Origin: Lachnospiraceae bacterium
GTDB taxonomy: Bacteria > Bacillota > Clostridia > Lachnospirales > Lachnospiraceae
NCBI GenBank assembly: GCA_017539565.1
Contig: JAFYCS010000091.1
Span: forward strand, 1-64,000
Length of the DNA stretch: 64,000 bases
Direction: 5' to 3'
The translations under genes and the position numbers were made by a program. The notes below the pieces were generated by a model. It ran no database searches, was not told the DNA's origin, and saw only the letters and a list, made by a program, of their open reading frames with translations. Positions 1,162-52,557 of the stretch are shown here, in pieces (within the stretch, counting starts at the first letter, position 1; each line of letters opens with the position of its first letter).

Positions 1162-2766
1162 TTAATCCTCACGACTGAACTGTGATATAAACTTCCATGC
1201 AGCTTCGTTGGTATGCTGTCTGCACTCGTGTACCTGCTCGCTTATGCTCGCGAACGCGGTACGGCATACCCCGTCCTCGCTGTCATAATAACGGATGGTA
1301 AGGGTACTGCCCCTGCTCTCATCCTTGATCTTTTCTACCCTGTCAGGTTTCATACCATAGACAGGCTCTTCCCAATTATCCTTATCTTCAAACTTTACAT
1401 TGTCGAAAGTACACTTGCACTTATTTACCTTAGCCGCGTACTGCACTCTCTCTATGCACTGCTCTCCCTGGCAGGGAAGCTCAGGCAGGTGTGATTTCTC
1501 TCCGCCCGAATAGAAGAGGGGAACGGGAACATCCATGTTGATACCGTCCTCTATGGACTTTCCGAACATATTGTTGTGTATGGGGAAGAGTGCACTGGCA
1601 GGTGCCATTCCCGCAAAAAGCTTCGGATATTCCTGGAACAGATCCCAGGTCTTGCCGCTGCCCATGGAGAAACCTGTCGCATAGATACGCTTCTCATCGA
1701 TCTTATATCTCTTCTTTATCTCTTCGATGAATTCAACAGCTTCCGTTGCGGTAATGAACTGATGATTATCAACAGCGATATAGAAGAAGTCGTTCTTATG
1801 TGCAACTTCCCACCATCCTGCAACAAAGGTAAGATACATTGATGAATCACCGCCGCCATGGAAACCTATCACCATGGGAGCAGGGCCCTTATCAAAGATA
1901 CCGTTATTGTAATATGCAAAATATCCTATCTTATGTGTGGGATCATCCTTGAAAGGACTCTTGTTATCGGGTGAAGTCTTGACCGTTACTATACCGCAGT
2001 CCTCACTCATATTAAGGGCTTCGAAATCCGGCTCGAACTCCATCTTGCCGCACCACATCTTGAACTTGCGTACGAAACTCTTAAAGTCAGCCTTATAATC
2101 TGCCTTATCTTTGATAAGCAGGTTTTCGCATCCTTCGAAAACTGCATTTATCTCGGCACTGTTGCCTACGCTTAAGATACCGATATCTTTTCTCTGCACA
2201 TCGGGCTTAACGCTTAAGCGCTCCATTGAACACATGGCGGGAGTTATCTCTCCGGGTCCCCAGAGGTATTCACCGTCTATCTTCTTTAAAAGGTTCTTTG
2301 CCACATAATCAGCGGAAGCTCCGTAGCTGTATATATCAGCCCTGAATATAGCTCCCCTTACGAAATATCCCTTAAACTCGCGTGTAAAGAAATCCGTGAT
2401 CGAAACTAAACCATCCTCATAATCCGGATTCATCTTTACTTCGGCGATAACTGCCGCGTACAGATCTTCCGTTTCTTCTGCCCAGCCGCCCTTTGCAGTG
2501 GGATAGACGAAGAGTACATTCGCATCAACTGCTGCAGCTATATCCGATAATCCGCTTTCTTTTGCAAAAGCTACAGCCTCATCCTTACTTAGCCTGTTCT
2601 CCTCAAGTACAAGAAGAAGCGGCTGGCGGAAAGTATAATTATTAGTAGGTGAATCGATATCATTCGCGGGAACATAAGTCTTTAAATAAAACTTCTCATA
2701 TTTATGCTCCCAGTACTTTCCCCCATCCGGCAGTTCGATGACAGCCGGCTTTTCCATTATTGCCAT
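1162..2766 (-). CDS. alpha/beta-hydrolase, poly(3-hydroxybutyrate)-depolymerase/feruloyl-esterase-like
   Basis: This 534-residue protein has no signal peptide or membrane helix, so it is probably cytoplasmic. The last ~270 residues look like an alpha/beta-hydrolase: an oxyanion-type GFHGGGDSS segment, then the nucleophile elbow GFSMGSG (Ser near residue 367) followed by the helix that leads to [11 protein letters not shown]. This is the pattern of the PHB depolymerase/LpqC esterase group. The ~270-residue N-terminal region has no motif I recognise. The start ATG at 2766 is supported by an AGGAGGGGG ribosome site 5 bases upstream; a second in-frame ATG three codons later is less well placed. 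It lies 23 bases behind the PAS-chemoreceptor gene and 15 bases before the radical SAM gene, so all three may be co-transcribed. The natural substrate is not evident. Confidence 0.75.
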
Positions 2767-2789
2767 TTGTTACCCCCTCCTGATATTTA

Positions 2790-4217
2790 TTATTTTTTAT
2801 AAAGAGTAGATACCATCTCAGCTATATCGTTTGCAAAATTATGAAGTCCTTCAACTGTAGCATCTATCTTCTCCATCTCTTCGCTTTCCGTTGCAACATT
2901 CTCGCTTATCTTTGAGATCTTTTCGAGCATGTCTTTAACGGAAGCATTCATATCTCCCAGTATACGTGCTATATCATTGGTGGTTTCCTTTGTCGATGCG
3001 GAAAGACTCTGGACTTCCGTAGCAACGACCGCAAAGCCTCTGCCGGCCTCACCTGCACGTGCTGCTTCTATGCTGGCATTAAGTGAAAGCAGGTTGGTCT
3101 GATTGGCAATGCTCTGTATACTGTCAATTATCTTCATGGACTCATCTACGGATGAGCCTATCATCTTTGCAGATTCAACTATGTCTGCCTGACGCTCCGC
3201 AACATCCTTCATCTGTTTTGCGGCCACGCCCACATTGGAAGCTATATCGGTGATACCGTTACGCAAAGACTCGATATTGGGAGCCATCTCTTCTTCAAAG
3301 CGCATCTGATTCTTTTTCTGATCGCTGATATCCAGAATGGTACCGGCAGCCATAAGAGGCGTACGGCGGTCACGTGACCATACAACTGTACTGGACGCCC
3401 TTACCCAGCGATACTCCCCGTCTTTATGCTTCATACGGTACTCGGTATCGAAAACCGTCTTGCCGCTGGGATCGGAAAGCTGCTTACCCATCAGGGCAGA
3501 TGCAGCAGCCACATCATCGGGATGCATCTTGGTTATCCAGGAACTCATTACATCAGGAAAATCAACAGAATTGCTGTAGCCAAGGATCTTCTTAAACTGA
3601 TCGGAAAATACCATGGGCGAATTGGGATCATCGATAGCATATTTAGTCAGATCCATACTCCAGCTGCCTTCGAGCATCATCAAATCTACCGCACCCTGAC
3701 GTCTCTGGCTTATCTCAAGTATTTCAGCATTCTTCTTTGCTTCATCGATATCGGAGAATGTTCCTAAGAAAATCTTGGGAGATCCGTCGGAATAACGTAT
3801 TACATCTCCCGTAGCATGAAAGTATTTATATCCGTCTCTCTTTGTCAGAAGACGATAATCTATATCATATTTTGTTCTGCCGGTCTTATCATTCGCAGCA
3901 GCACCGAAAGCGCCGAATACCGCAGCTGTATCATCGGGATGGATGATCTTTCCGAGTCCGTCGATGACGTCGGGAAGTTCGGTTCTGCTGTATCCCAGCA
4001 TGTCCCTCATAACATCGGTAAAGAGCACTCTTTCCTGCTCGCCTGCTTCATTATAATAGCAGAACCACATACCCAGACGGGCACACTTATTGATCATGTT
4101 GAGCATCTTATCAAGTTCCTCAACAACGTCCTGCTTTTCCTCCAGATCTTCTTCAAGCTGTCTGATGCGCGCCTCGAGCTCTGCATTATTGCCTGCATTC
4201 TTTATCTTGCCAAACAT
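2790..4217 (-). CDS. soluble chemoreceptor with two PAS domains
   Basis: This 475-residue protein has no transmembrane segment, so it is a cytoplasmic methyl-accepting chemotaxis protein. Residues ~12-45 form a charged coiled coil. Two PAS/PAC modules follow (about 45-165 and 175-305), each with the MHPDD/IHPDD-type PAS core and a [10 protein letters not shown]- or [13 protein letters not shown]-type PAC core. The C-terminal third is a chemoreceptor signalling domain containing the highly conserved hairpin [20 protein letters not shown]. The domain is short, as in several soluble receptors. The PAS pair suggests an internal redox, small-molecule or energy signal, but no haem or flavin ligand can be assigned by eye. 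The start at 4217 has an AAGGGGG ribosome site. It follows the CheX/receiver gene, and both probably feed the same chemotaxis pathway. Confidence 0.9.
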
Positions 4218-4301
4218 GATCCGTACCCCCTTATAGTATTATTTGATCATCATGCCGTGTTAACGGACAGATGAAGTTTATCTTTGCCCTGTGTTAAAAT
4301 A

Positions 4302-5606
4302 TCATAAGATCTCCTTGATATTCCTTACTATCTCTTCTTCATTAAAAGGTTTGTTGATAAAACGTTTTGCACCTGTCTTCAAAGCTTTGATCAGCTTATC
4401 CTGCTGTCCTGCAGCGGTTATCATGATAACCTTTGCCTCAGGATCAAATTTCAATATCTGTTCCAGTGCTTCGAGACCGTCCATCTTCGGCATCGTGATA
4501 TCAAGTGTAACTATATCGGGCTTGAATTTCTTATATGCCTCCACGCCGTCTTCTCCGTTGGCTGCTTCTGCAACGACAGCCATATCGGCCTTCTCGAGTA
4601 TGCCTTTCATCATCAGTCTGGACATTCTGGAATCGTCCACGACAAGAACGGTATTTCCGTCACCTGTTGCAGCTTCACCTTCACCTGAAGATATAACGGC
4701 ACCTGTATTTTCCGGTGTCTCACCGGCAACAAAATCAGAGTCTACGGAGATCACTATGTTTATCTTTGCACCTTCAAGATATACGGGTACAACATAGAAA
4801 TCACCCACAGCCTTCTGTGCCTTAAAACTGAGGGGCGGCTCCATATCGATATTTACACCGTTCTTGCTGAGCTCGGTAACAAAGATACCGCTGGTAACAT
4901 TTATGAACTCACTGACGGAATCATAAGTATCTGCTTCCGTTTTTGTTTTATCATCATGTGAAAAACTGTTGCCTACTTTCAGGAAACCGCCATTATCCTC
5001 TTCCTCCGCGATGCCTATGAAGATGTTATGATCACCTGCCATCTCCTGGGTAGCGATATGTGTATAGGACAGTTCCTTAAGATGCTTTGCTTTTTCGATA
5101 TAGTAATCCGATGAAACGAACCTGACCAGATTTCTGGCCACGAGTCCCGCGATATCCATGATATAAGGCTTTGAGGAAAATACGAAAAGCGGCATAAGCT
5201 TGTCGATATCATCGGACTTAAGCGCCTCCAGTTCCTCATCCGAAAAGCCGGCGTCTTTCTTATATATCTTTAAGAATTCCTCTATATCACCGTTAGTAAG
5301 ACTTGTAAGCTGGGTGGTCAGTTCGATAAACTGCATATAAGCATTACCCTGCTTTGAAAGAAGGGTAACTATCTGCTCGGGAGTAAGCAGCCCCAGATCA
5401 ACGGCTATATCACCGAAGCGCTTATCCTGCTGCTTCTGCATCTCGTTGATCTCTTCAACCTGCTTCTCCGTAAGTATCCCATCGGATACGGCAATAGTAC
5501 CCAGCTTAACCCTTACAGTCTTTTGTTTTTCTATTATCTGTTTAAGGACGTCGGCACTTATTGCTTTCTTTTCTACAAGATATTTTCCGAACAGTTGAAT
5601 GAACAT
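4302..5606 (-). CDS. chemotaxis regulator: MshEN-like repeat, CheX-like domain, CheY-like receiver
   Basis: 434 residues in three parts. Residues ~5-95 contain two adjacent repeats of the type (K/R)(L/F)GxIAVxxGxLTxxQ...Q, resembling the MshEN/GspE N-terminal c-di-GMP-binding motif, though the two units follow each other without the usual long linker. Residues ~130-300 resemble a CheC/CheX-type domain (YDSVSEFINVTSGIF, GDFYVVPVYLEGAKI). Residues ~315-434 are a receiver: acidic pair in VVDDSR, phospho-acceptor Asp in LDITMPKMDG, conserved Thr/Ala (MITAAG) and Lys in FINKPF. It probably takes part in chemotaxis phosphate flow. c-di-GMP binding is inference. ATG 5606 is preferred over the TTG at 5612 because the GGGGG ribosome site sits 9 bases from the ATG and too close to the TTG. 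Confidence 0.8.
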   Translation of the reverse strand: MFIQLFGKYLVEKKAISADVLKQIIEKQKTVRVKLGTIAVSDGILTEKQVEEINEMQKQQDKRFGDIAVDLGLLTPEQIVTLLSKQGNAYMQFIELTTQLTSLTNGDIEEFLKIYKKDAGFSDEELEALKSDDIDKLMPLFVFSSKPYIMDIAGLVARNLVRFVSSDYYIEKAKHLKELSYTHIATQEMAGDHNIFIGIAEEEDNGGFLKVGNSFSHDDKTKTEADTYDSVSEFINVTSGIFVTELSKNGVNIDMEPPLSFKAQKAVGDFYVVPVYLEGAKINIVISVDSDFVAGETPENTGAVISSGEGEAATGDGNTVLVVDDSRMSRLMMKGILEKADMAVVAEAANGEDGVEAYKKFKPDIVTLDITMPKMDGLEALEQILKFDPEAKVIMITAAGQQDKLIKALKTGAKRFINKPFNEEEIVRNIKEIL

Positions 5607-44916: not shown

Positions 44917-46350
44917 TTACTCATCTTTTTTCTCTTTTTCCTCTTCTGCAAGCTGCAGACTGAAAATAAATTCCGTTCCTACTCCTTCAGTACTTATAAC
45001 ATTGATGTTTTCACCATGAGCCCTGATTATCTCCTTTGTTATGGACAATCCCAGACCTGTGCCCTTCTTATCCTTGCCTCGGGAGATATCTGATTTATAA
45101 AAACGGTTGAACACCAATGGTACACTTTCTTTCGGAATACCTATACCGCTGTCCTTTACGGATACAAAAACTTTATTATGCCGTTCCGTGGTCTCGACCT
45201 TTATTACAGAATTATGGTGGCTGAACTTGATCGCATTATCTATCAGATTGTACAGCACCTGCTGTATCCTGGTAAGGTCCGCATGTACCGGAAGTACCTC
45301 TCCCGTAAGGGAAAGCTCCATGGCGATCTTCTTCTCGCGGCAGCTTCCTTCAAAGGTGGAAATGGTCTTGCGGATAACGTCATTGATATCAAAATCCGTT
45401 TTATCAAGGATCATTCCCTCGGTATTTAAGTTGTTGAGCGTCAGCAGATTATTGGTGAGCTTTATCAGACGCTCCGTTTCGTTCAAAACTATATCTATAT
45501 ATTTAGGATACAGTTCCGGAGGTATCGTACCGTCTTCCATTGCTTTAAGATAACCGTTTATCGATGTGAGCGGTGAACGGAAATCGTGGGAAACATTGGC
45601 CACGATGTGCTTCTGGTTGTCTTCTCCCTTAGCCAGCTCCTGGGCCATGTATGCAAGCGACGCCGCAAGGTATCCTATCTCGTCATCACTCTCTACGCTT
45701 ATGGGATATCGCAGGTTGCCTGCAGCATATTCCTCGGTAGCAGCGATGATACGCCGCAGCGGCATATATACCAGCTCTGTAAAGAATATCAGTATTATCA
45801 GCGACAATACGAAAAGTATGAATACCAGTATGTAATCTATATCTACAAGATGATCCGCTGTCTTCTGGAGTAATTTGCAGTCGTAATGGATCAGGACATA
45901 TCCGCGCACCGAATATCCCATGGTAATAGGTGCTGCCACCGAAAGATGCTCTTCGCTGAACTGATTATAGAAATTTCCTATAGTAAAAAAGGATCCGGAA
46001 AGTGTCGACATATCAAAACCTTCCACATTGGGAGGATTTTCCACATCAACGGGCAGAGCGGAATCTACTATAATAAGACCCGAAGGATTTATGATCTGAA
46101 GTCTGGCATTGAGCATTGCGGCGTACTGATCAACAACTGCCTTCGTTCCTGCTATGGACGATTCATTCTTATACAGTGCCAGACCTTCGTTTTCCGAAAG
46201 TATATCGGCAAAACGATAAAGCTCCTCGGCCTTATTCTGCTGCAGGCGGCTGAGCGTCATCTGCTGCATGAACGTCGCCACTACTATAAGACCGAAGACA
46301 GCAAATATCGCATATGCTATCAGCAGTTTAACGTATAGGGTTTTTTTCAT
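44917..46350 (-). CDS. membrane sensor histidine kinase
   Basis: 477 residues: helix 1 (about 8-28), an extracytoplasmic sensor of ~145 residues, helix 2 (about 176-198), HAMP, HisKA with the phospho-acceptor His in NVSHDFRSPLTS (about residue 251), and an ATPase domain with N-box LYNLIDNAIKFS, G1 DSGIGIPKE and G2 KKGTGLGLSI. A typical OmpR-class kinase (PhoR/ResE-like). The ATG overlaps the stop of the response-regulator gene by four bases (46347-46350), so the two are translationally coupled. The extracytoplasmic sensor has no recognisable ligand motif. Confidence 0.95.
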   Translation of the reverse strand: MKKTLYVKLLIAYAIFAVFGLIVVATFMQQMTLSRLQQNKAEELYRFADILSENEGLALYKNESSIAGTKAVVDQYAAMLNARLQIINPSGLIIVDSALPVDVENPPNVEGFDMSTLSGSFFTIGNFYNQFSEEHLSVAAPITMGYSVRGYVLIHYDCKLLQKTADHLVDIDYILVFILFVLSLIILIFFTELVYMPLRRIIAATEEYAAGNLRYPISVESDDEIGYLAASLAYMAQELAKGEDNQKHIVANVSHDFRSPLTSINGYLKAMEDGTIPPELYPKYIDIVLNETERLIKLTNNLLTLNNLNTEGMILDKTDFDINDVIRKTISTFEGSCREKKIAMELSLTGEVLPVHADLTRIQQVLYNLIDNAIKFSHHNSVIKVETTERHNKVFVSVKDSGIGIPKESVPLVFNRFYKSDISRGKDKKGTGLGLSITKEIIRAHGENINVISTEGVGTEFIFSLQLAEEEKEKKDE

Positions 46351-47048
46351 AATACTTCAAAGCGATAACCACGGCCCCAGATAGTGGATATCTTCCAGGC
46401 AGTGTGATCGCCTATCTTCTCACGTATACGCTTGATGTGCACATCAACTGTACGTGTATCACCGACATAATCGTAACCCCATATCTGATCCAGCAGCTGC
46501 TCGCGGCTGTATACACGATTGGGCGCCGACGCCAGATAATATAAAAGCTCCAGCTCCTTGGGCGGCATATCCAGACGGTGTCCCATACAGGTCACGCTGT
46601 AATTGGTCTTGTTGATGATAAGGTCGGGAAAGCGCAGTTCTTCCGCATCTTCCACTTCTTCTTCAGCGGGTGCACTGCCCTTATAACGGCGCATTACCGC
46701 TTTGACCCTGGCCACCAGCTCCTTTGAATCAAAGGGCTTTTCCATATAATCATCAGCCCCCAGTTCAAGACCCAGAACCTTATCAAACACTTCACCCTTT
46801 GCGGAAAGCATTATGATAGGTATCTGTGATGTACTGCGTACCTCACGGCATACCTGATAACCGTCGATGCCCGGAAGCATCAGATCCAGCAGTATCAGAT
46901 TGGGATTGAACTCCTTTACCGCATCCAGTGCTGCTTCGCCGTCGCCTACTATCTCCGTCTCAAAACATTCTTTCGTAAGATAAAGACTGATAAGCTCAGC
47001 GATGTGTTCGTCATCGTCAACGATCAGTACTTTCTGTTTCTCAGCCAT
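46347..47048 (-). CDS. OmpR-family response regulator
   Basis: 233 residues. Receiver with acidic pair in IVDDDEH, phospho-acceptor in LILLDLMLPGIDG, Ser in MLSAKG and Lys in YMEKPF. C-terminal winged helix (about 135-233) with PPKELELLYYLA, VYSREQLLDQIWGYDYVGDTRTVDVHIKRIREKIG. ATG 47048 is preferred over ATG 47063 because the GGGGGGAA ribosome site sits between the two. It is 18 bases downstream of mutS2 and overlaps the kinase gene. It should activate or repress genes not identifiable here, perhaps including the following PQ-rich membrane protein. Confidence 0.95.
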   Translation of the reverse strand: MAEKQKVLIVDDDEHIAELISLYLTKECFETEIVGDGEAALDAVKEFNPNLILLDLMLPGIDGYQVCREVRSTSQIPIIMLSAKGEVFDKVLGLELGADDYMEKPFDSKELVARVKAVMRRYKGSAPAEEEVEDAEELRFPDLIINKTNYSVTCMGHRLDMPPKELELLYYLASAPNRVYSREQLLDQIWGYDYVGDTRTVDVHIKRIREKIGDHTAWKISTIWGRGYRFEVL

Positions 47049-47066
47049 GTAGATTCCCCCCATTAG

Positions 47067-49460
47067 TTAAAACGAAACAATTGTTACTCCGGCGTCACCC
47101 TCACCATGGGCCGCCAGCTCATAATGCTTTACGATGGAGTTAAAGCGAAGATAATCGTGTATGCCTTTACGCAGGGCACCGGTGCCTTTTCCGTGAACAA
47201 TACGCACCTTATCCGCATGTGACATATATGCATCATCAAGATATTTGTCTATCCTTGCGATGGCCTCATCAACAGTGCAGCCCAGCACATTTATCTCCGC
47301 AGAGATATGCGATGCTCTCGAAAGATCCAGCTTGGGCTGGCTCTTTTTCGGCTTGTTCATTTCTATCTGTTTATCGCTTAACTCTGTCTTTACCAGTTCG
47401 TCCAAAGGTACACGGCTGGTGATTATGCCGCAGCGTACCTGTACATTTCCGTCCTTATCGGGAGCACTTATTATCTCGCCGTCCACATCCATGCTCAGCA
47501 CATGCACGGTGGTTCCGGGAAGTGCCTCGGAAGGTTTGAGCGCAGCTCCCACGCTCTCCTTCTTTTCTGTTTTATTACGCTTTAATGTATCCTTATAAAG
47601 AGCCTCATCCTGCTTGCTGAGCCATTCCCGCACATTACTGCGCTTCTTTTCCATGGTCTGGATCTTCATCTGGTTGCCCTGGTTATTAAAGGCACGGATG
47701 GTCTCGTCTGCCACTTCCTTGGCTTCCTGCAGCAGTTCCTTTGCTTCCTCACGGGCGTTGTTAAGTATCTTTTCCTTCTGGCTCTCCAGTTTGGATTCAC
47801 GCTCCGTAAGCTCTTTAATACGCTGCTCGAGTACTTCCTTTTCCTTAGAGAACTCTGCCAGCTCCGCTTCCAGCCTGATACGCTTATCCTGCAGTTCACT
47901 GATAACTGACTCAAAGCTCTCTTCTTCGTTACTTAAATATTGTCCGGCATTATCGATTATGTCTTCCGGTAATCCCAGCTTACCCGCTATCGCAAAGGCG
48001 TTACTTTTTCCGGGTATACCTGTCAGCAGACGGTAAGTGGGGCTTAAAGTCTCCACATTAAATTCGCAGCCGGCATTCTCCACCCCTTCCGTTGAAAGGG
48101 CATAGATCTTAAGCTCACTGTAATGTGTGGTGGCCATGGTGCGTATGCCCTGTGAATGCAGGCGGTCCAGTATAGCCGTGGCAAGAGCCGCGCCTTCTAC
48201 GGGATCGGTACCTGCGCCCAGCTCATCAAAAAGCACCAGGCTGTCACGCTTTGCCTTCTTTAATATCCATACTATATTGCTCATATGGGATGAGAAGGTG
48301 GACAGGGACTGTTCTATACTCTGCTCATCTCCTATATCCGCAAAAATATCACCGAATAACGACAGTTCCGAACGGTCGGCTGCCGGTATGTGCAGGCCCG
48401 CCTGTCCCATAAGGCACAAAAGACCTACGGTCTTTAATGATACGGTCTTGCCGCCGGTATTGGGTCCGGTAACTATCAGCAGGTCGTATTTATCTCCAAG
48501 ACTTATATCTATGGGTACCGCTTTGGACTGATCCAACAGCGGATGTCTTGCGCTGCGCAGTCTGATACGTCCTTCGGTATTATAGACCGGACGCATCGCA
48601 TTTAATTTAAGCGCATATTTCGCTTTTGCGAAAATGAAGTCCAGCATGGTAACGCTTTTCTGGTCCTCATTGACTATATCGGCGTTTTCCGCAAGCTTTG
48701 CCGTCAGGGCCGCAAGTATACGGCGGATCTCATCATCCTCTTCACGCTTTAAGCTGTTAAGCTGGTTGTTCAGCTCCACTATGGCTGCAGGCTCTACAAA
48801 AAAGGTAGACCCCGTCGAGCTCTGGTCATGTACTATACCGGGCACCTGTGATTTGTATTCCGACTTAACGGGTATACAGTAACGGTCACCCCTTTTGGTG
48901 ATGATGGCATCCTGCAGATATGTCCTCAGGGACTGATTGACCATATGGTTTAGCTGATTGTGGATGCGTCCGCTCACGGTAGCAAATGAGTTGCGTATAC
49001 GCCTAAGCTCCGACGACGCATCATCAGCCATTTCCTCTTCACTCACTATACAGCGGTTTATCTCATTTTTAAGAGGACTGACAGATATCAGGGTATTAAA
49101 GAGTTCCGTCAGGTCATCAGCAGTTTCGGCAGCTGTATCCTCTCCGTACTTAATCAGATCCTCAACGCACTGCAAAAGGCGGGCCACCTTTAAAAGCTCC
49201 TCCATTGACAGCGGTCTGCCGATAGAAGCGTCCTTTAAAAGCTGCCTTGCATCAAAATTAGCTCCAAAAGAGAGGCGGTCACTCTTAAGCATCCTGCTGA
49301 AAGCCGCAGCTGTCTGCGCCTGTGCCTTCTCTATCCATTCGGGATTCTGCGAAGGACGCAGGGTAGCACACATATTTTTTGCGGGCGCACTGCCGCAGTA
49401 ACCTTCCAAAATGGAGGTTATCTTATCAAATTCAAGGGTATGCAAAACTTTTCCGTTCAT
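47067..49460 (-). CDS. mutS2: MutS2-family endonuclease/ATPase
   Basis: 797 residues. The N-terminal clamp/lever helices (TLEFDKITSILEGYCGS) lead to a MutS ATPase with Walker A GPNTGGKTVSLKT (about residue 330), Walker B LVLFDELGAGTDP and ATTHYSELK. A long coiled coil (about 515-620) follows, and the C-terminal Smr nuclease domain has VLGCTVDEAIARIDKYLDDA and RIVHGKGTGALRKGI. MutS2 proteins suppress recombination or act in ribosome rescue. The start at 49460 fits the family but has no ribosome site, and a promoter ends 9 bases before it. First gene of the unit with the two-component system. Confidence 0.96.
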   Translation of the reverse strand: MNGKVLHTLEFDKITSILEGYCGSAPAKNMCATLRPSQNPEWIEKAQAQTAAAFSRMLKSDRLSFGANFDARQLLKDASIGRPLSMEELLKVARLLQCVEDLIKYGEDTAAETADDLTELFNTLISVSPLKNEINRCIVSEEEMADDASSELRRIRNSFATVSGRIHNQLNHMVNQSLRTYLQDAIITKRGDRYCIPVKSEYKSQVPGIVHDQSSTGSTFFVEPAAIVELNNQLNSLKREEDDEIRRILAALTAKLAENADIVNEDQKSVTMLDFIFAKAKYALKLNAMRPVYNTEGRIRLRSARHPLLDQSKAVPIDISLGDKYDLLIVTGPNTGGKTVSLKTVGLLCLMGQAGLHIPAADRSELSLFGDIFADIGDEQSIEQSLSTFSSHMSNIVWILKKAKRDSLVLFDELGAGTDPVEGAALATAILDRLHSQGIRTMATTHYSELKIYALSTEGVENAGCEFNVETLSPTYRLLTGIPGKSNAFAIAGKLGLPEDIIDNAGQYLSNEEESFESVISELQDKRIRLEAELAEFSKEKEVLEQRIKELTERESKLESQKEKILNNAREEAKELLQEAKEVADETIRAFNNQGNQMKIQTMEKKRSNVREWLSKQDEALYKDTLKRNKTEKKESVGAALKPSEALPGTTVHVLSMDVDGEIISAPDKDGNVQVRCGIITSRVPLDELVKTELSDKQIEMNKPKKSQPKLDLSRASHISAEINVLGCTVDEAIARIDKYLDDAYMSHADKVRIVHGKGTGALRKGIHDYLRFNSIVKHYELAAHGEGDAGVTIVSF

Positions 49461-49560: not shown

Positions 49561-49589
49561 TTGACAATAACGTGATATTCAGCCATCAT
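49561..49589 (+). promoter_or_regulatory. promoter of the chemoreceptor/sugar-binding-fold fusion gene
   Basis: Perfect -35 TTGACA (49561-49566) with CATCAT (49584-49589, four of six matches) 17 bases downstream. The leader is ~45 bases and contains AGGAGGG. Confidence 0.5.
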
Positions 49590-49641
49590 TAGCATAAGGC
49601 AACCTGTTTCATAATTCCGAATAGAATAGGAGGGTAAGCTT

Positions 49642-51519
49642 TTGTTCAGGAAAAATACTTCCCATGAGAGCGAGATCATTCAGGCTAACCTTACTACCTT
49701 CGTAGAAGCCACAAAAGTAAATGTGGTCACACTTTCAGATGCCATCAATGATCTTTCCGAAAGCGTCAATGCCAACAGCAGAGGTAATGAGCAGATCGCA
49801 AACAGTGCTACAAACGTGGCTCAAAAGACTGCCGAGCAGCTGGAGCTTGTAAAAGACAATTTAAACCTCATCGAAGAAAACAATACCAGCATGCAAAACA
49901 TCGATGCCGCTCTGACGGATATCAAGACCATTCTGGATGATACCGTCAATGAAAGCAACAGCGGCATACGCAGTATCGAACAGCTGGATATAGATATGAA
50001 GGCTATGAGTAATGACTTAAGCCGAATAAACGATATACTCTCCAAATTCAATAACGAGATCGAACGTATAAGTGAAGTCGGCGATTTCATCATAGAAGTG
50101 GTCGATCAGCTGAAACTGCTGGCTCTTAATGCTTCCATAGAAGCGGCCCGTGCCGGTGAAGCAGGCCGCGGCTTTTCCGTTGTTGCCAACGAGATGAACA
50201 GCATGTCGACCAAGACCAGAGAAGGTATGGATACCATCAGCGAGATCTTATCGGAGATCACTGATTCCAGCCGTATGGTAAACGAGAGCATAGAAAACTG
50301 CACAAATACATATAATAAGAGCAACGAGGCTTTCACTTCCGTAAGTGACTCTTTCAGGACGATAAATGAAAGCTCCCATGGCATACATAATAAATTAAAA
50401 GATATCTCTTCCCTCTTCAGTGACATGAGCCATAATTCCGATAAGTCAAAAATGAAGGCTGAGAATCTTTTTGAGACAGCTGAAGCCATCAGCGAAAACA
50501 CCCACGAGATAGCTGCAGTATCCGAAGAAGTTGCTGCAGAGTCTGTTAAGATAGGCGCAAATACCGAAAACCTTGATAACATGCTCACCGGTATACGTAA
50601 CCTGTTAAAGCAGTATAATACCGCCATCGTTCCCACCAGCAGAAGGACCTCCAAAAAGGTAAAGATACTCTCGATGAGTATGCTGGATAACGATTTCTGG
50701 TACAGCGTGCGCAAAGGTGTTTTATATGCCCAGAAGGAACTGGAAGAATATAATGCAGTTGTAGAATACATTCCTCTGATCCCCGGTGAATTCTCCCTTG
50801 ATGAAATGGTCATCAATTCTATCAGGTCAGCTATCGACCGCGGTTTCGACGGAATAGTGTTCCCCGGCTTTTTAGGCGGAGCCAACAGATACTTTAAAGA
50901 AGCAGCTTCCAAAGGTATAAAACTCATGGCATACAACTGCGACTGCAGTAAGGATATCCCCAGGATAGCCTGCCTGCGTCCCGATCCCATGGAGCCCGGT
51001 ATACTGGGTGCCAAAGCGGCGGAAAAGAAAACCGACGGGCACGGCAATATCCTTATGCTGACCGGTGACAGATCCGTCGGCGTAAATGTTGAAAGAAGTG
51101 AAGGCTTTAAGAACCAGCTTAAGAATTATAAGGGCGTTAAGGTCTGTGCCGAATTAACGGTTCCCGATAATGCAGATCAGGTTTACAAGATCGCTAAAGA
51201 CGGATTAAACGCACATCCCGAAGCAGATGTGATCTTCCTGACAAACGGCTTCCCCATCTCCGTGGCAAAAGCCATCAGGGATACGGGCAGGATACGAAAG
51301 ACTTCCCTGGTATGTTTCGACCATAACCAGGAAATCTTCTCCGAAATAAAGTCCGGTATCATCAGCGCCGCCATCGGGCAGGATGCTTTCGGCCAGGGAC
51401 ACGATCCCGTTATATGGCTCTACAATCACATCGTCACCGGTGAAAAACTGGATGAATTCATTCCATGTAAACTGTCGGTAGTCGATAAAACTAATGTAGA
51501 AAGTCTGATAGAGGTTTAA
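49642..51519 (+). CDS. cytoplasmic chemoreceptor signalling domain fused to a C-terminal periplasmic-binding-protein fold
   Basis: 625 residues with no signal peptide or membrane helix. Residues ~1-330 are long helices of a chemoreceptor signalling domain; the hairpin tip [19 protein letters not shown] is near residues 155-175 and the late helix has AAVSEEVAAES. After a basic linker (TSRRTSKKVK, about 335-345), residues ~345-625 are a type-I sugar-binding fold: ILSMSMLDNDFWYSVRKGV, GFDGIVFPGFLGGANRYFKEAASKGIKLMAYN, GNILMLTGDRSVGVNVERSEGF, VIFLTNGFPISVAKAI and ISAAIGQDAFGQG. The start is TTG 49642, chosen because AGGAGGG is 7-8 bases upstream and no ATG is near. Likely role: chemotaxis toward or from an intracellular sugar or similar ligand. 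The domain order, output before sensor, is unusual. Confidence 0.88.
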   Translation: MFRKNTSHESEIIQANLTTFVEATKVNVVTLSDAINDLSESVNANSRGNEQIANSATNVAQKTAEQLELVKDNLNLIEENNTSMQNIDAALTDIKTILDDTVNESNSGIRSIEQLDIDMKAMSNDLSRINDILSKFNNEIERISEVGDFIIEVVDQLKLLALNASIEAARAGEAGRGFSVVANEMNSMSTKTREGMDTISEILSEITDSSRMVNESIENCTNTYNKSNEAFTSVSDSFRTINESSHGIHNKLKDISSLFSDMSHNSDKSKMKAENLFETAEAISENTHEIAAVSEEVAAESVKIGANTENLDNMLTGIRNLLKQYNTAIVPTSRRTSKKVKILSMSMLDNDFWYSVRKGVLYAQKELEEYNAVVEYIPLIPGEFSLDEMVINSIRSAIDRGFDGIVFPGFLGGANRYFKEAASKGIKLMAYNCDCSKDIPRIACLRPDPMEPGILGAKAAEKKTDGHGNILMLTGDRSVGVNVERSEGFKNQLKNYKGVKVCAELTVPDNADQVYKIAKDGLNAHPEADVIFLTNGFPISVAKAIRDTGRIRKTSLVCFDHNQEIFSEIKSGIISAAIGQDAFGQGHDPVIWLYNHIVTGEKLDEFIPCKLSVVDKTNVESLIEV

Positions 51520-51525
51520 ATTGAT

Positions 51526-51547
51526 GAGGACGCTTCAAAGCGTCCTC
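51526..51547. terminator. hairpin between convergent genes
   Basis: Perfect 8-base stem GAGGACGC / GCGTCCTC with loop TTCAAA, seven bases after the stop of the fusion gene and three before the stop of the opposing gene. T-runs are weak on both sides, so it is a probable bidirectional terminator rather than a canonical one. Confidence 0.6.
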
Positions 51548-51549
51548 TG

Positions 51550-52557
51550 TCATTTCCCATCCTTCCCGGGATCACGTTTAAGAAACAATTCCGTACAGAC
51601 ACTCAGCACATCCATAACTGCCGGATATTCTTCAAAATGACTCTGTACATTATCTGAATGCACATATTCCACATGCATGTATCCGGGATCCATAGGCCTG
51701 CTGACACAAACTGTCTTGATATCAAATACAGGCTCCTGCGTAGTAAGCATCATACGCTCCTCCCGCCCCGCTTCTACATCCTGCAAGGCTTTCCGGACTG
51801 TATCCGTAAAATTATCGATATCGTAAATGACCTGCTTTTTACCGGCGGTCTCTATCGTCCACATTTCATCGGGAACGATACTGCTGTGATCGATCCCCTT
51901 TTTTGCTTCCCTCATCAATGCAGCCTGTTTGGCTTCTCTGAGCCTTTCTGCTCCTGCCTCCGCATGGGAAAAACCACGCGCTACTTCTTTATCCGTGAGC
52001 AATCTGCCGTTTCCGCTAGTAGCATAAGTAGGGATATGGATTTTTTTATTCTTATGGTAAAACTGAAAGAAAACATAGGTCGTAAAATTCTTAGTCATAT
52101 ATGGCACATGATTTACTAAGATCTTCCCTATCGATGCGGCAGATATCATCTGAAACTTCCAGGGGTTCATATTGGAAATATAGGCTATCCGCCCGTTAAG
52201 TGTATCGATGAGTACGGTTCCGGAATATCCGCGAAAGATATATGCCTCTTCAAAACCATACTTTCCCCTGTTTTTATCTATCGTTTTTGAGATGGCCCGG
52301 TAAAAAACACTGTGGTGATCACCGGCATTTATGTTGAACAGAAACCAGAAAATGGCAACCATAAGCGACATGCATAAAAAGAGCGGGATAAAACCCGTTT
52401 TCTCCATTTTTAATTTGAATAACGCTGCAACTGCCGCACCGCCGCTGAAAATAACAAACAGATTACATATCAGATAATCCGCGCCAAGAGTATGTAATCT
52501 GTCTGTATATTCTTCAGTTATATTTTCTGTATTATCTGTCATTTCTTCAGTGACCAT
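51550..52557 (-). CDS. unknown membrane protein
   Basis: 335 residues; family not recognised. Two hydrophobic helices lie at about residues 32-50 and 58-76 after an acidic N-terminus rich in Thr/Glu. The soluble remainder (about 80-335) begins with a small beta-rich section (YIFRGYSGTVLIDTLNGRIAYISN) that could be a PH-like or membrane-sensing domain, then a charged helical segment (RGFSHAEAGAERLREAKQAA) and a beta-rich end. No catalytic motif. The start is uncertain: ATG 52557 or ATG 52542, neither with a strong ribosome site. It follows the four-helix protein by 13 bases and probably forms a pair with it. Confidence 0.7.
   Translation of the reverse strand: MVTEEMTDNTENITEEYTDRLHTLGADYLICNLFVIFSGGAAVAALFKLKMEKTGFIPLFLCMSLMVAIFWFLFNINAGDHHSVFYRAISKTIDKNRGKYGFEEAYIFRGYSGTVLIDTLNGRIAYISNMNPWKFQMISAASIGKILVNHVPYMTKNFTTYVFFQFYHKNKKIHIPTYATSGNGRLLTDKEVARGFSHAEAGAERLREAKQAALMREAKKGIDHSSIVPDEMWTIETAGKKQVIYDIDNFTDTVRKALQDVEAGREERMMLTTQEPVFDIKTVCVSRPMDPGYMHVEYVHSDNVQSHFEEYPAVMDVLSVCTELFLKRDPGKDGK

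Follow-up and report, generated by a model that had tools for sequence, protein, structure and literature searches.

The window that we analyzed, a stretch of 64,000 nucleotides of DNA from a gut bacterium of the Lachnospiraceae, carries on its forward strand a gene whose product joins the helical hairpin of a methyl-accepting chemotaxis protein (MCP) to a type-I sugar-binding fold (Table 1). An earlier note on this DNA had assigned a TTG start to the gene, and our reading agrees. A ribosome-binding site (RBS), AGGAGG, lies 8 nt upstream of this start; AGGAGG likewise precedes the gene in the relatives L009, L010 and L011. The same note had credited the gene with a promoter and a hairpin terminator of its own. 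A promoter-like site is present and is common to the L011 relative, in which the same hexamers occur at the same spacing 5' of the gene, but in a promoter scan of the locus the number of sites was not above that in shuffled sequences. A perfect inverted repeat does follow the stop codon, but its T-tract is weak and a terminator scan of the locus gave a result not above shuffles. The convergent neighbor (51550–52557, − strand, 335 aa) had no Pfam match at 1e-5.

Table 1. Features of the gene and its product, in positions of the window.
Feature	Position	Strand	Basis or remark
Promoter-like TTGACA-17-CATCAT	49561..49589	+	promoter scan
RBS AGGAGG, 8 nt 5' of start	49628..49633	+	
Whole gene, 625 aa, TTG start, TAA stop	49642..51519	+	intact frame; Pfam two-domain match
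Short N-terminal tail, residues 1–15	49642..49686	+	position of a hydrophobic helix and juxtamembrane stub in most relatives
MCP helical hairpin stalk, residues 16–323	49687..50610	+	no indel in 51/51
Signaling tip, residues 157–181	50110..50184	+	alignment of 51 family members
Candidate methylation pair E295-E296	50524..50529	+	5/6 consensus positions
Linker joining stalk to sensor, residues 324–339 (16 residues)	50611..50658	+	16 aa in 49/51
Type-I sugar-binding fold, residues 340–625	50659..51516	+	Pfam Peripla_BP_4, predicted fold, profile matches
N432, in XylFII D103 column	50935..50937	+	invariant in 51/51
FGQGHDP signature, residues 583–589	51388..51408	+	basis of pattern used to find family
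Perfect 10-nt inverted repeat, terminator-like, weak T-tract	51526..51547	+	directly 3' of stop, between convergent genes

The Pfam MCPsignal family matched the protein at 90.3 bits, against a curated cut-off of 34.6. The C-terminal half matched Peripla_BP_4, with an additional match at 31.5 bits to Peripla_BP_1, which is described as including the LacI family; no match to CZB was found in Pfam at E ≤ 0.01. The earlier note had allowed that this half might prove to be something other than a binding-protein fold, and structure prediction gave a type-I binding fold, so that by sequence family and by fold alike it belongs with the type-I sugar-binding proteins. The pTM of the prediction was 0.54, at which the placement of the sensor relative to the stalk is unreliable. 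The order that had been claimed, hairpin first and sugar-binding fold second, was confirmed by Pfam, by the predicted fold and by 51 of 51 relatives scanned, every one of which matched both MCPsignal and Peripla_BP_4. HAMP was absent among the Pfam families that these 51 members matched at E ≤ 0.001.

The same architecture, which the earlier note had proposed to look for in Lachnospiraceae, was found there as a family. When 299 genomes of the taxonomic family were searched at E ≤ 1e-40, eight matched, the window's own genome included. A collection of 84,980 species was also scanned with the sensor alignment, using the single pattern F[GS]QGHDP[IV]; 180 stretches matched, 113 of these encode relatives, and 80 loci of the 113 were kept. 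Most of the 80 are titled Lachnospiraceae, and those further out include Thermoclostridium, Acetivibrio, Pseudobacteroides, Herbivorax and others. Two loci are cut by a contig end (L021 and L072) and one has a short, odd frame (L048); in the other 77 the frame is long enough to hold both domains. A phylum-wide sample searched with the sensor profile at E ≤ 1e-60 returned only the own genome among 398 and is too thin to map the family.

Conservation in the stalk, tip and pocket was counted in an alignment of 51 rows. The stalk is 308 residues long in every row, with zero gap columns; such constancy of stalk and linker length is what a coiled coil needs if it is to work in a fixed register. In an alignment with 2ch7, a receptor from T. 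maritima, each arm of the stalk is shorter by seven residues. Within the tip, residues N163, E167, G172, G177, F178 and V180 are invariant (51/51) and position 170 is Arg in 45/51; on the pattern of E. coli Tsr, we take all of these but G177 to be trimer and CheA/CheW contacts. Scored against the methylation consensus that we assumed, the E295-E296 site reaches five of six positions in 34/51 members and all six in three. The tip differs from those of other MCPs in the genome. Twelve of these other tips could be read, and just before the leucines they have [QE]-T-[NS] (Q in 11, T in 12, N in 10), whereas this receptor has Q-L-K; within the family (n = 51), L157 is found in 51, Q in 39 and K in 26. 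With Leu where 12 other MCPs have Thr, mixing of the receptor into a common array is not assured.

The genome itself has 14 MCPsignal matches, 13 of them over the cut-off and the receptor gene among them, as well as one CheR match, one flagellin match and four CheW-domain matches, whose frames (180, 710, 304 and 307 aa) we read as CheW, CheA and two CheV proteins, in that order. CheW was found in 8/8 genomes that carry the receptor, as compared with 162/299 in the whole family sample and 154/291 among non-carriers (one-sided Fisher p = 0.007). This co-occurrence supports wiring to the Che system but little more, because any true MCP should show it. Thus, for the claim that the protein drives the chemotaxis kinase directly, the evidence is circumstantial, consisting of the CheW-domain, CheR and flagellin genes and of the distribution of CheW. 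Two other MCPs without a hydrophobic helix were observed in the same genome: one, also soluble, within the window (2802–3218, − strand; 482-aa frame), and a 646-aa frame (L098; G000:C73:20179-20643) whose N-terminus by eye resembles an iron-sulfur ferredoxin.

The unusual tip could mean that an MCP-shaped protein with a cytosolic ligand does not steer flagella at all and instead serves another pathway as scaffold or regulator, with CheV or a two-component system as possible routes. The Leu kept in 51/51 members would fit such a role, as would the position of the gene in L009 and L010, 13–20 bp behind those for a response regulator and a histidine kinase. We nevertheless regard this explanation as unlikely, since N163, E167, G172, F178 and V180 are invariant and R170 is nearly so, a methylation-like site is kept in two thirds of the members, and every carrier genome has CheW.

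In profile comparisons, the solved sequences closest to the sensor were GanP (5e-41), XylFII (3e-37) and the T. maritima glucose-binding protein (7e-37 to 9e-37). The titles of the structure entries give glucose/galactose as the ligands of GanP and glucose as that of the T. maritima protein, and a reference title gives xylose for XylFII. Proteins that bind AI-2 scored lower (4pz0, 7.5e-16; SmLsrB, 1e-12; LsrB, 2e-12). Of the ligands that the earlier note had suggested, sugars therefore fit best, and AI-2 as the top guess is disfavored by the profile scores. Judging from these relatives, the ligand is likely an aldopyranose (xylose, glucose and galactose are examples) or a compound closely derived from one. 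The sensor's only other match in its own genome was a 364-aa frame with 25% identity.

Residues D349, F352, W353, N432 and D560 are invariant in the 51 members, R485 is kept in 49/51 and Q580 in 48/51; on the pattern of ribose-binding protein, we take the kept aromatic residues together with Arg485, Asp560 and Gln580 to be pocket residues. The column of N432 is occupied by Asp in GanP, XylFII and the T. maritima glucose-binding protein and by Asn throughout the family. It is the column of the XylFII Asp that was replaced in a D103A structure entry, and the two XylFII rows differ there. Because an invariant Asn replaces the Asp of these three proteins, the predicted ligand might be no ordinary sugar. 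The FGQGHDP signature follows soon after Q580, and its residues F583, Q585, G586, H587, D588 and P589 are invariant in 51/51. By analogy with ribose-binding protein, the chain presumably returns at this point to the subdomain that is attached to the stalk, and this suggests a role in coupling or in the dimer.

Selection was assessed by dN/dS of the window gene against relatives, with stalk and sensor treated separately. Against L009 and L010 the values were 0.05–0.07 for the stalk and 0.04–0.05 for the sensor, figures that are rough, as dS was near saturation at 1.4–2.1. The L018 sensor gave 0.06 at a dS of 2.5; its stalk, like both domains of L011 and L012, had a dS that exceeded the range of the method. 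These low values for the sensor bear on a second alternative, in which the binding domain no longer binds a ligand and serves only as a dimerizing or array-spacing module. The Asn for Asp substitution in 51/51 members at the XylFII D103 column would be in keeping with lost binding, but F352, W353 and D560 never vary, and R485 and Q580 rarely do, in a domain with a mean column identity of 54%. Taken with the low dN/dS, this makes the alternative improbable.

The genes around the family were compared for hints of the ligand's source. In the anchored close kin L014, L015, L016, L019 and L022, a GH43-like gene on the same strand ends 24–154 bp upstream of the chosen start, with GH39-like genes further upstream; a GH3 gene lies downstream in L014, L015, L016 and L019, not in L022, and an AraC regulator is present too. 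In this group L016 was scanned with Pfam and the others were joined by BLAST cluster; L017 is cut there and L020 is without the arrangement. A second group (L039, L040, L043, L044 and L046) has a GH10-esterase gene that ends 38–42 bp upstream (Pfam on L039), and GH10 is also found nearby in L025 and L050. These hydrolases are a hint, in two groups and with no background rate, that plant-fibre pentoses may be the source of the ligand; glycoside hydrolase genes are common in fibre-degrading bacteria such as these. As proof of a xylan-derived ligand the context was rejected, given that only two groups have it and that it was not seen in the clade whose members lack a membrane anchor, where 0/7 scanned neighbors were glycoside hydrolases (L009, L011, two in L012, two in L018, and the window).

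The block upstream of the receptor gene in L009 and L010 consists of homologs, 90–96% identical, of the window's response regulator, histidine kinase and 797-aa gene, the last of which we take to be mutS2. In L009 and L010 the block is collinear with the receptor gene, and in the window it points away (44917–49460, − strand); judged by gene order, this change of orientation is a rearrangement beside the receptor gene. At another locus, L056, the MCP-sensor gene is preceded at a distance of 177 bp by an 871-aa frame (2027–4639, + strand). Peripla_BP_3 is found in the first third of this frame, and HisKA, HATPase_c and Response_reg follow; no signal peptide was seen by eye. The frame is apparently a second output fused to a cytoplasmic binding fold.

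The earlier note had described the protein as lacking a signal peptide and a membrane helix, and had placed the sensor inside the cell for that reason. Both statements agree with our results. No hydrophobic stretch was found in the window frame by hydropathy, and with a sensor that begins internally at residue 340 and no hydrophobic N-terminus, there is no sign of export. What that note missed is that the family is mostly anchored to the membrane and that soluble members were seen in only part of one genus. Most relatives start with a hydrophobic helix, encoded in the first 50–60 codons, which the window protein lacks; its N-terminal hydropathy maximum is 0.81, as compared with 2.4–3.5 in relatives whose start is placed before the helix. 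No relic of a transmembrane helix was seen in another frame upstream of the gene.

Helices were counted by a hydropathy rule and by eye; in seven rows the automatic choice of start had removed the helix, yet the open frame holds one. A maximum-likelihood tree of 79 rows was built by a short search with SH-aLRT support and repeated without the N-terminal columns, leaving out nine of 88 proteins, namely the cut or odd L021, L048 and L072 and the duplicates L013, L034, L036, L039, L056 and L066. The rows comprise 14 with two helices, 59 with one and six with none, and two changes in all, the minimum possible, account for them. The six helix-free rows form one clade with a support of 100, nested inside the one-helix rows, and were reached by a single change. 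That the anchor was lost rather than gained is our reading with the two-helix group chosen as outgroup, a direction that the tree alone cannot tell. In the window's genus, 14/35 genomes have the family, eight in the anchored form and six, including the window's own, in the unanchored form. The remaining five of these six match tree rows L009, L010, L011, L012 and L018 at 99.8–100%.

By the positive-inside rule, the flank of a membrane helix that is rich in Lys and Arg faces the cytoplasm. In 57 one-helix rows, some of which are copies of one gene, seven Lys/Arg residues precede the helix and 286 lie in the 20 residues after it; therefore, the stalk and sensor lie in the cytoplasm in the anchored relatives as well. 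By this reading, the whole family has an intracellular sensor, and fully soluble members were seen in part of the window's genus only. It is extremely improbable that the protein is an artefact, either of an assembly that joined two genes or of decay in a gene without its 5' end, for although the window copy lacks the helix-coding codons of most relatives, the same short form occurs with good start sites in five other genomes of the genus and the frame is intact with low dN/dS. A frameshift or assembly join at the domain boundary (about residue 335–345), a doubt raised by the earlier note, was looked for and is ruled out by the fusion in 51/51 relatives and by the six independent genomes that share the short form.

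In the LacI repressor, the effector part is followed by a short hinge and then by the N-subdomain of the binding fold. The order of effector module, linker and binding fold is the same here, and we therefore propose a LacI-like mechanism based on ligand closure: the protein would be a cytoplasmic chemoreceptor that uses its type-I sugar-binding domain to detect an intracellular small molecule and relays this to CheA, a reading that we consider probable. The far tip of the hairpin would bind CheW/CheA. At the opposite end, where the two ends of the hairpin meet, the sensor would hang by its linker after the C-terminal helix, and the two binding domains of a homodimer would be paired as in LacI. 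Closure on the ligand would shift the paired domains against each other and twist or splay the end of the four-helix stalk, much like the movement of the LacI hinge helices, and this change would travel to the tip and alter CheA activity. In most relatives, one or two helices would tie the stalk to the membrane, leaving the sensor in the cytoplasm; in the unanchored clade, the receptor would have to enter arrays through its tip alone or build an array free of the membrane. The history may have been that the lineage adopted a LacI-style cytosolic sugar sensor beneath the membrane, steered by internal sugar and then shed the anchor in part of the genus, a scenario that we offer tentatively, at somewhat less than even chances.

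If this scenario is true, the cell steers by the level of a sugar (or altered sugar) inside it and not outside, and the unanchored form is a fully soluble, metabolite-gated receptor. How bacteria couple swimming to internal metabolite levels could be tested directly with one protein and a ligand set that can be named. The series of two, one and no helices, with sensor and stalk length unchanged, also amounts to a natural experiment on the contribution of membrane anchoring to chemoreceptor function.

Chemotaxis linked to binding proteins is a textbook case of sensing from outside. With LacI/PurR, the window protein would share the architecture that we assume for those repressors, in which an effector module at the N-terminus precedes a type-I binding fold in the cytoplasm; unlike them, its effector is a chemoreceptor stalk and not a DNA-binding head. 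As in the XylFII-LytS and CuaD-CuaS systems of clostridia, a sugar-binding protein would drive a sensor, and XylFII is itself among the closest solved sequences, but here the binding domain is fused and inside the cell. Going by entry and reference titles, XylFII would be a separate binding protein that meets its LytS sensor outside the membrane. CuaD, according to the part of the source available, likewise meets its sensor there as a separate protein (PMC10384115). A search of open-licence literature, a weak test of novelty, found no description of an MCP followed by a C-terminal type-I binding fold. In the accessible part of a catalog of chemoreceptor sensor domains, one Peripla_BP_5 sequence appears in plant-linked clusters and an MCP-sugar-fold fusion was not seen (PMC8547431); a paper that touches chemoreceptors, Peripla_BP_4 and MCPsignal treats LsrB/LuxP and dCache receptors in its accessible part, where this fusion was not seen either (PMC12268683).

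Membrane-free receptors of Rhodobacter sphaeroides and Vibrio cholerae form CheA/CheW arrays, and fragments of E. coli Tar without transmembrane regions also build such arrays with crowding agents (PMC3964821). No sugar-binding domain is mentioned for the cytoplasmic arrays of the two species in the portion of that source available. Output placed before sensor, which the earlier note had stressed, holds as an order and is not new in itself: Helicobacter pylori TlpD is a soluble receptor in which a C-terminal CZB sensor comes after the MCP domain (PMC13001251; PMC12871147). TlpD resembles the window protein in this arrangement, but as far as the excerpts of those sources go, its sensor is a zinc-binding four-helix bundle, it has an N-terminal PAS domain and no sugar-binding fold, and its MCP domain is about half the length of that of Tsr. 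Already known, within the same limits, are cytoplasmic receptors with a C-terminal sensor (TlpD) and sugar-binding proteins that drive kinases from outside (CuaD); in the window protein, the same binding fold lies inside the cell and is part of the receptor.
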